A stretch of 64,000 nucleotides of DNA from Bacteroidales bacterium. GTDB taxonomy: Bacteria; Bacteroidota; Bacteroidia; Bacteroidales; P3. The number at the start of each line of letters is the position of its first letter. Within the stretch, counting starts at the first letter, position 1. The notes under the pieces are model-generated. The model saw only the letters and a program-made list of their open reading frames with translations, had not been told where the DNA came from and made no database searches. Position numbers and translations under genes: made by a program. Where the stretch lies: positions 62,001 to 126,000 of the forward strand of contig JAQVXZ010000001.1 in the NCBI GenBank assembly GCA_028708845.1. Direction: 5' to 3'. This document shows, piece by piece, positions 49,122 to 51,432 of the stretch.

Positions 49122-49199
49122 GATTATAAAGGATACTACCCTCTTTTATATTTCTTTGAATTATAGTTTTGCAGGTTTGAATTTTTGATATACTGAAGA

Positions 49200-49424
49200 C
49201 TATAAGCTTAGGAGATAAGTCCTATCTAACTCAACCACTCCTAACTCAGCACCAAATAATCTGAGAACTTGATTTACCTTATCCATTCTTAGGGTAGGTT
49301 TTTCTTGTTCAAGTTCTCTAATAAACCTTAGCCCAACACCTGATTTCTCTGCAAGCTCTTGCTGAGTTAAACCAGATTCTTTTCTCTTTGCTTTCACAAA
49401 TTCCTTTAACGATAATCTTTCCAT
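49200..49424 (-). CDS. HipB-like XRE-family regulator without a partner toxin
   Basis: 74 residues from the ATG at 49422-49424. A longer in-frame start at 49460 would add 12 residues, but these run through the operator DNA. A Cro/C1-type helix-turn-helix (LTQQELAEKSGVGLRFIREL) is followed by EKPTLRMDKVNQVLRLFGAELGV, the pattern of HipB-like antitoxins. No hipA-like kinase lies on either side; downstream is the convergent metallophosphoesterase gene. Three palindromic operators upstream imply autorepression. It may be a solitary regulator or the remnant of a toxin-antitoxin pair. Confidence 0.85.
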   Translation of the reverse strand: MERLSLKEFVKAKRKESGLTQQELAEKSGVGLRFIRELEQEKPTLRMDKVNQVLRLFGAELGVVELDRTYLLSL

Positions 49425-49426
49425 AA

Positions 49427-49526
49427 TATACCTTTTAGGGTATAAACTCCATACTATCATAGCATATTATACCCTTTCGGGTGCAAAAATACAACATTTA
49501 TACTAATTCGTACCTGATAGGGTATA
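49427..49526. promoter_or_regulatory. Three operators for the HipB-like regulator, 41 bp apart
   Basis: The sites follow TATACC-N6-GGTATA. Site 1, 49427-49444, is perfect. Site 2, 49468-49485, is TATACC then GGTGCA. Site 3, 49509-49526, is CGTACC then GGTATA. Starts are exactly 41 bp apart, about four helical turns, so bound dimers face the same side. Site 1 begins 3 bp upstream of the start codon, and site 2 touches the -7 element. Confidence 0.75.
49484..49491 (-). promoter_or_regulatory. -7 promoter element of the HipB-like gene
   Basis: The minus-strand sequence TATTTTTG matches TAnnTTTG. It lies between operators 2 and 3, consistent with repression by bound regulator. Confidence 0.6.
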
Positions 49527-49577: not shown

Positions 49578-51149
49578 TTATATATTCCTATACGCATCAT
49601 CTATTATCTCTTGTGGGTAGTTGTTTAGTTCCAATATCTTTATGGCATTGGTGTCGTAGCTTTTTCCTATGTTGAGGGTGTAGTTAAATGATATTTCACC
49701 CTCACTAACGCTTTCTGTGAAATATCCTCTTTCAAAATCATCGTCAAGAAGTTCTATTAATTCTAAATCGTGGGTTGAAAACAATATTATATTATCTGTT
49801 TTATTCAAGTAATGAAGAATAGATTTCGATGTAGCTATCCTTTCTCTTGTATTGGTTCCTTTGAATAGCTCATCAATAATAAAAAGATGTCTCTCCTCTT
49901 TTGTGGATGCGTCCACTAAGGTTTTTATTAGAGAAACCTCTTCAAAGAAAAAGCTCTTAGACGAAAGAAGGTCATCTTTAACACGTATTGAAGTTAGGGT
50001 TTTCATTCTTGATACTTCAAATCTCTTAGCAAAACAAGTATTTATGGTGTTTGCAAGTATATTATTTATTGCAATTGTTCTAAGAAATGTTGTCTTACCT
50101 GACATATTAGAACCTGTAATAATAAGGCTTTCGTTATTCAAATTAATGCTATTAGGTACGCAGTGTTCAAGCAAAGGATGTATAATATCTTCACAAACTA
50201 AGGTCTTGCTATCCTTCAAAATCTTTGGTTTACAGAAATAAAGCATATCTTCTCTTAGCTGCAAAATTGATAAATAGAGGTCAACCTTTCCTATTGAATT
50301 ATATAATATACTTATATGTTCTCTCTTATGATCAATGCCAGATAAGACCTTTTGCATTGCGATTAACTCTATAAGAAAGCAACCCTTTAAGAGTTCAAAA
50401 GGATACCAAAAAACAAACATAAGCTCGTTTGCTTCCAAATAATTCCCTGAGCTTATCATTTTTTGCCAATGCCTTATGCCTGATAATGCTCTAATACTCT
50501 CTCTTCTATTATCTTGATTTATAAAACTTATAGATGTTTTTTCTATGCTAAGTGATGTCTTATATAAGGTTTCTAACTGAGATAATGAATCTATATATAC
50601 TAGTAGTTTCTTTTTATTATTATAATGAATTGCAAGGTTCGCTATCCCAATAAATATAAATAATAGGAGAAATGAAGGGTTGAAAAATGATAATATAAGT
50701 GATAAGAGAGCTGAGAAAGACAGTAGGTAGTAAAGATTTATAAACTTGTCTAAAGGGAATGAAGAGCCTAAGAACAAATGTGGTAGCTGCAACAGTTTAA
50801 TGGATTTCGTCTTTTCCAATATCTTTTTCAGACTATCTCTTTCCCTAATATTTTTACTCAGATAGTCAATATTCTTTTCAATTATCTCAATATCTTTTTC
50901 TCTCGCCTCTTGACTAATTATATGATTATAAAGATACTGCTTACCTATAATAGAATTTGCCCTATCAACCTTATAGAAGACATCATTCAAATCCAAATCA
51001 AGAACAACTTGCTTATTTGCCTCCTTAAACTCCTTATCATTCTTAAGCTCATAAAACAAAGATAAATCCAAAATATCAATATCCTGAGAGTCAATCTCTT
51101 CTTTCTCTTTTCTAAAGAACCCCTTTATATATGTAATAAGACTATTCAT
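49578..51149 (-). CDS. MutS-related ATPase with central membrane segments
   Basis: 523 residues. The C-terminal ~180 residues are a MutS-type ABC ATPase: Walker A GSNMSGKTTFLR near residue 345, Walker B HLFIIDELFKGTNTRER, and the switch His in FSTHDLEL. The N-terminal half has a helical clamp-like region interrupted by two hydrophobic segments (about 135-175). The mismatch-recognition domain I with its Phe-X-Glu is absent. So it is unlikely to do classical mismatch repair; Bacteroidota carry such membrane MutS-like proteins of unknown role. A -7 element lies 55 nt upstream of the start. Confidence 0.8.
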   Translation of the reverse strand: MNSLITYIKGFFRKEKEEIDSQDIDILDLSLFYELKNDKEFKEANKQVVLDLDLNDVFYKVDRANSIIGKQYLYNHIISQEAREKDIEIIEKNIDYLSKNIRERDSLKKILEKTKSIKLLQLPHLFLGSSFPLDKFINLYYLLSFSALLSLILSFFNPSFLLLFIFIGIANLAIHYNNKKKLLVYIDSLSQLETLYKTSLSIEKTSISFINQDNRRESIRALSGIRHWQKMISSGNYLEANELMFVFWYPFELLKGCFLIELIAMQKVLSGIDHKREHISILYNSIGKVDLYLSILQLREDMLYFCKPKILKDSKTLVCEDIIHPLLEHCVPNSINLNNESLIITGSNMSGKTTFLRTIAINNILANTINTCFAKRFEVSRMKTLTSIRVKDDLLSSKSFFFEEVSLIKTLVDASTKEERHLFIIDELFKGTNTRERIATSKSILHYLNKTDNIILFSTHDLELIELLDDDFERGYFTESVSEGEISFNYTLNIGKSYDTNAIKILELNNYPQEIIDDAYRNI

Positions 51150-51212: not shown

Positions 51213-51351
51213 GGAAATTGTTTTGGATTCCTTATAGGTTTAAGGCTTGAATTAGCAAGAAATTGAATATGATAGATAATGAGAGTTGAAATATCAAGTA
51301 ATAATATTGCAAATCAAAGATTTAGCTTTGTAAAACAAAGACTTATTTGAG

Positions 51352-51432
51352 TAAGGTGGCAGGTTACTCATAGTAAGGTGGCAGGTTACTATGTGTAAGG
51401 TGGCAGGTTACTATGTGTAAGGTGGCACCTTA
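51352..51432. repeat. 22-bp-period tandem repeat ending in a palindrome
   Basis: TAAGGTGGCAGGTTACT starts at 51352, 51374 and 51396, and a fourth unit at 51418 changes into TAAGGTGGCACCTTA, a 7+7-bp palindrome. The period is exactly 22 bp with 5-bp spacers CATAG, ATGTG and ATGTG. No reading frame uses it. It occupies the 51150-51665 gap with the repeats described next. Confidence 0.9.

Follow-up and report, generated by a model that had tools for sequence, protein, structure and literature searches.

The hipB gene and its probable operator array

The window, which is the whole stretch of 64,000 nucleotides of Bacteroidales DNA analyzed here, carries at positions 49200 to 49424 of the minus strand a solitary hipB gene for a 74-amino-acid helix-turn-helix antitoxin/repressor, assigned to the Y4mF (couple_hipB) family by TIGR03070 and by its fold. 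The protein reached 82.6 bits with TIGR03070 (NCBIfam), above the curated cut-off of 71.65, and 23 of 23 aligned relatives matched this model, too. An AlphaFold model (pLDDT of 89.8) had the HipB(Lp) structure 8ezt as best Foldseek match in the PDB and the E. coli HipB structures 4yg1 and 3dnv in the top ten, although the E values were weak (1e−3 at best), which is no surprise for a protein of 74 residues. A sequence search of the PDB likewise placed the Legionella HipB first. The proposal of the sequence-only reading that the regulator is HipB-like agrees with the TIGR03070 result and with the structural similarity to HipB(Lp) and E. coli HipB-O1-O2. An alternative in-frame ATG is present at position 49460, but the ATG at 49424 is taken here as the start of hipB because the relatives start there and because a start at 49460 would put the first operator inside the coding region.

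Three palindromes on the gene (minus) strand precede hipB. O1 is located at positions 49427 to 49444 (TATACCTTTTAGGGTATA on the forward strand, TATACCCTAAAAGGTATA on the gene strand), O2 at 49468 to 49485 (TATACCCTTTCGGGTGCA and TGCACCCGAAAGGGTATA, respectively), and O3, upstream of the core promoter, at 49509 to 49526 (CGTACCTGATAGGGTATA and TATACCCTATCAGGTACG, respectively). A pattern search recovered them exactly where the sequence-only reading had placed them, with start-to-start distances of 41 and 41 bp and 23-bp gaps separating neighboring operators. That reading had described all three as TATACC-N6-GGTATA, which holds for O1 with zero mismatches and perfect 6-bp arms; O2 and O3 each deviate at two positions, and the family consensus is a different one, on the gene strand about TATACCCGA(A/T)(A/C)GGGTATA, with variation. 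The operator type of E. coli HipB was rejected for these sites, which are of the TATACC-N6-GGTATA and not of the TATCC-N8-GGATA type.

O1 ends two bases upstream of the ATG at 49424, and O2 shares 2 bp with a −7 promoter box of the Bacteroidota type TAnnTTTG, predicted from the sequence at positions 49484 to 49491 of the minus strand (TATTTTTG); both contacts had been noticed before and are correct. The mismatches of O2 fall into this overlap, which explains the deviation of this end of O2 from the consensus. In relatives from the same genus, the box is kept as TATCTTTG or TATATTTG. The arrangement of O2 and the box is found again in many relatives, and 66 of the 93 upstream regions introduced below show such an overlap of an operator with a −7-like box. 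With O2 reaching into the −7 box and O1 lying right beside the start codon, autorepression of hipB is the natural reading of this promoter.

Single sites with up to three mismatches occurred 34 times in the window, compared to 28.8 expected, and sites with up to two mismatches 121 times in the genome, compared to 154 for a reversed control pattern. A genome search for further targets, as had been suggested earlier, thus yielded single sites at chance frequency, the outcome that the sequence-only reading had named as refuting its proposal, while the array itself is not a chance event: pairs of ACC-N6-GGT with a gap of 20 to 40 bp were found in the whole 2.43-Mb genome only as O1/O2 and O2/O3, two places compared to one for a control pattern. 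O1 to O3 are the sole such operator cluster of this genome. A genome-wide HipB regulon was considered and rejected, with near matches at chance level and the three one-mismatch sites that were checked all inside coding regions; such a regulon is unlikely because the motif is local to the array. The decisive evidence that the array is real comes from its conservation in relatives.

Operator spacing in relatives

In four genomes of the same genus, G175, G177, G176, and G172, of which the last two are near-identical to each other, the operators are located at −20, −61, and −102 from the ATG, and spacers and flanks differ. Homology of the window with its closest relative, G175, starts at about O3, and the flanks beyond this point are unrelated. 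Between the window and G175, 0 of 54 operator positions but 5 of 48 spacer positions differ (Fisher P = 0.02), with part of this divergence belonging to the branch of the complete system. Five operator differences stand against 19 spacer differences in the comparison with G177 (P = 0.0004) and against 27 in that with G176 (P = 4e−7).

The set of relatives was extended to 93 non-redundant upstream regions, mostly from Bacteroidota, with some from Chlorobiota and Ignavibacteria. An analysis of repeat lags that did not use any motif gave a lag of 41 in 59 and a lag of 40 in 30 of these 93 loci, which are not independent of each other since the promoters are homologous; any other lag between 22 and 79 appeared in five or fewer, and shuffled sequences yielded 11 hits in 1,860 at lag 41. 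When neighboring operators were scored, the spacing was 41 bp in 85 cases, 40 bp in 44, 42 bp in 5, 43 bp in 2, and another value in 4, so that 129 of 140 pairs were 40 to 41 bp apart. Bacteroidota plasmid loci, left aside at first and examined afterwards, had this spacing in 7 of 7 cases. A rare exception is locus L096, with successive spacings of 41 and 32 bp, the last two operators being those 32 bp apart. In locus L078, from a bin labeled as a planctomycete, two operators are 73 bp apart, which is close to the approximately 71 bp of Legionella.

Between loci, the spacers were 38% identical, compared to 33% for shuffled spacers and to 73% for the operators, and the length of the stretch from the last operator to the ATG had a standard deviation of 20 bp. 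Almost unrelated spacers together with a variable distance between operator and ATG indicate that length is held only between the operators. This variable distance argues against mere evolutionary inertia as the origin of the spacing, without excluding it. The conserved equal spacing suggests a functional constraint and would fit a cooperative assembly on the array.

In one variant clade of this taxonomic family, GLRFVRE/D in the recognition helix is replaced by GLCFVRN. The operators of the clade resemble TATATGCGAAATGATATA and not TATACCCGAAAGGGTATA, with the CCC/GGG core lost, and the spacing was 40 to 41 bp in 9 of 9 members examined. The protein of locus L111 is otherwise like those of this clade but has the arginine, and its sites are canonical. 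As far as sequence comparison reaches, the co-variation of operator and helix shows a link of HipB to these sites and a spacing independent of the site sequence; being confined to one GLCFVRN clade, it probably represents one evolutionary event.

Probable loss of hipS and hipT

Downstream of hipB, the position occupied by hipS-hipT in relatives is taken by a short non-coding gap of 78 bp (49122 to 49199, no strand assigned) that leads to a convergent phosphoesterase gene. Neither hipS nor hipT was found directly downstream of hipB in the window, and no remnant of hipS was seen. Both this orphan state and the occurrence of the spacing throughout the family had escaped the sequence-only reading. 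A search for HipA_C and Couple_hipA domains in this genome, which is an incomplete assembly (97.9%), gave no match other than a single fused HipA, which is encoded on contig C33 next to another helix-turn-helix partner gene. The genomes compared within the genus are also incomplete. In G177, a hipB 85% identical to that in the window is directly followed by a hipS-like gene (HipA N-terminal domain, TIGR03071) and a hipT-like kinase gene, a complete hipBST. The hipB-hipS junction of G175 is at a contig end, and hipS-hipT begins another contig. G176 possesses a solitary hipB with a 7-codon hipS stump, and G172 a solitary hipB with a replaced C terminus. These comparisons suggest more than one loss of hipST within this genus.

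A hipS and a hipT gene were located directly 3' of hipB in 73 of the 93 loci. Seven solitary loci kept the 40- to 41-bp spacing (L014, L026, L027, L031, L035, L064, and L088, with 2.6 kb downstream scanned) and, together with the one in the window, make eight. Retention of the spacing by these orphans means that either the losses are recent or the kinase is not needed for the spacing. Family members are carried by plasmids; a phage collection contained no match.

A synteny comparison for an empty site showed that genus relatives lack the phosphoesterase gene or have it elsewhere and that other neighbors flank their MutS-like gene. The latter gene (49578 to 51149, minus strand) encodes an ATPase with MutS domain V but no other MutS domain; its best NCBIfam matches were MutS and KamC reactivase, all below cut-off, and orthologues in three genus relatives were 68 to 69% identical. 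A short tandem repeat of the type taaggtggcaggttactatgtg, with about three to four copies, is located at 51350 to 51430 between the MutS-like and TonB receptor genes. In G176 (L119, 2362 to 5994), a cassette with HNH, GNAT-PIN, and ASCH-like genes separates ispG from the solitary hipB. Another 3' hipB fragment adjoins the distal end of this cassette, which thus looks like an insertion into a former hipB-hipST locus. The solitary hipB genes with intact arrays in L035, L026, and L027 adjoin genes on the opposite strand that look like AbiEii-type nucleotidyltransferase genes. The gene names in these last two observations were judged by eye.

Proposed assembly on the array and comparison with other HipB systems

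Systems of the HipB/HipA type control growth arrest and persistence. In E. coli, neighboring operators are bridged by HipA dimerization between them. Only for very few species is it known how HipB and kinase partners assemble on promoters with several operators.

O1 to O3 very probably form the operator array through which a solitary Y4mF-family hipB, descended from a hipB-hipS-hipT toxin-antitoxin operon, is controlled by its own product, with HipB binding and repression being what we infer rather than what can be read from the DNA. HipB dimers would occupy O1, O2, and O3. The dimer at O2 would keep RNA polymerase out by masking the −7 box together with the probable transcript start, that at O1 would cover the leader beside the start codon, and that at O3 would be located behind the promoter. 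In complete operons, kinase-containing HipB-HipS-HipT complexes on neighboring operators may touch each other across the 23-bp gaps, and a spacing of 40 to 41 bp would set the rotation and distance of the bridging surfaces. By a geometric argument, HipB without the kinase subunits would probably not reach across these gaps. Since gaps of 23 bp suggest a lack of contact between neighboring HipB dimers, and since HipA is the bridge in E. coli, the spacing may have evolved to allow HipS/HipT to make the connection, a proposal for which confidence and doubt are evenly balanced. In the genome of the window, from which hipST is gone, HipB alone would probably still repress its own gene, and the spacing may have been inherited or kept by weaker HipB-only effects.

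A possible but doubtful alternative follows the sequence-only reading, which had proposed looping or wrapping by this small regulator. It assumes cooperative binding of HipB without any toxin subunit, with the DNA bent or wrapped and the spacing set by the curvature between bent sites. Orphan loci including that of the window keep the spacing, a helical phase common to the lineages (see below) would agree, and in E. coli, HipA-HipB2-HipA bends the operator by 70 degrees and cooperative binding of HipB to the four sites has been reported (PMC3376134). However, gaps of 23 bp look too long for a direct contact of 74-amino-acid dimers, most loci contain hipST, and gel shifts with the Legionella HipB suggested intermediate occupancy and not clear cooperativity (PMC10653801).

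It is rather unlikely that the array is only a vestige, with hipB decaying after the loss of hipST and the operators surviving only because this loss was recent. Three window-specific amino acid changes near the C terminus compared to G175 and G177, and the hipS stump still kept by the likewise solitary G176, would be compatible with decay. On the other hand, neither the reading frame nor the recognition helix is damaged, the −7 box and the three operators are likewise preserved, and the differences from G175 spared the operators and not the spacers.

Geometry of RNA polymerase is an improbable cause of the spacing. One operator would have to cover the −7 box, and the upstream contact region and the leader would be chance positions of the others. 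The frequent overlap of an operator with a −7-like box speaks for this; but the operator that carries the box ranges from the first to the fourth between loci with the spacing unchanged, and the group L090 to L098 has the box apart from the array. A role of O1 as RNA hairpin near the ribosome-binding site instead of as DNA operator, which its palindromic nature and its position beside the start codon might imply, is hardly credible, since the predicted leader fold is only modestly stable (z = −1.97) and does not use the O1 hairpin, two further copies of the palindrome are located at the probable transcript start or farther upstream, and relatives differ widely in how far their last operator is from the ATG.

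A near-invariant spacing across the phylum, with site, spacer, and promoter position varying, is a strong and directly testable constraint on the assembly of HipB and kinase, and the natural orphans separate HipB-only from kinase-dependent effects. Regular arrays upstream of hipB are already known from Legionella and have been noted for Caulobacter. A literature search with limited coverage of subscription papers did not reveal the 40- to 41-bp rule for the phylum, the joint change of helix and operator with the spacing unchanged, an orphan whose array is intact, or a possible helical-phase rule.

Like the window locus, HipBST of Legionella pneumophila has multiple evenly spaced 18-nucleotide operators upstream of a small HipB, the one with the closest structure (8ezt). 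Its three operators have 53-bp gaps (approximately 71 bp start to start) and were bound by HipB in gel shifts, O1 is 24 nucleotides from the start codon, and no other sites exist in the genome except at a related locus (PMC10653801). The gaps in the family of the window HipB are 22 to 23 bp instead, and the order hipB-hipS-hipT of Legionella is that of the complete relatives, while the window is without hipS and hipT. E. coli K-12 hipBA shares 18-bp palindromes upstream of an autorepressed HipB operon and the helix-turn-helix fold (4yg1, 3dnv), but has four sites, O1 to O4, spaced by 28, 39, and 28 bp, with another half-site sequence (TATCC-N8-GGATA) and a fused HipA toxin.

The rhizobial Y4mF/HipA system (y4mF of pNGR234a) and proteobacterial TIGR03070-like operons belong to the same family and likewise have evenly spaced palindromic arrays, but with an operator of the CCCGATCGGG type and a fused HipA. 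Among twenty such loci, three of which had no signal above shuffles, the spacing was 38 to 39 bp in Agrobacterium, S. medicae, Martelella, and Methylobacterium and 49 to 51 bp in Acidovorax, Sphingobium, Novosphingobium, Delftia, Tistrella, Acidiphilium, Rhizobium, Brevundimonas, NGR234, Skermanella, Devosia, and Acetobacter. With a period of 10.5 bp, the six class values gave R = 0.91 (Rayleigh P of about 0.003; 0.01 to 0.02 when one class was left out), which is only suggestive of a clustering of HipB spacings at one helix phase because the classes are few and were picked after seeing the data. Tentatively, the spacing may jump by whole turns (28, 38 to 41, 49 to 51, and approximately 71 bp) at a nearly constant rotational offset, as for one conserved higher-order assembly of HipB and toxin on DNA that tolerates different gap lengths, and solitary HipBs keeping the array may silence incoming related hipBST operons. 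For the promoters of hipBA1 and hipBA2 in Caulobacter, a series of identical inverted repeats at regular intervals was noted, and HipA dimerization within HipA/HipB/operator complexes was mentioned (PMC7029023); these are similarly regular repeats, but they belong to complete hipBA systems, and their spacing was not quantified across lineages.
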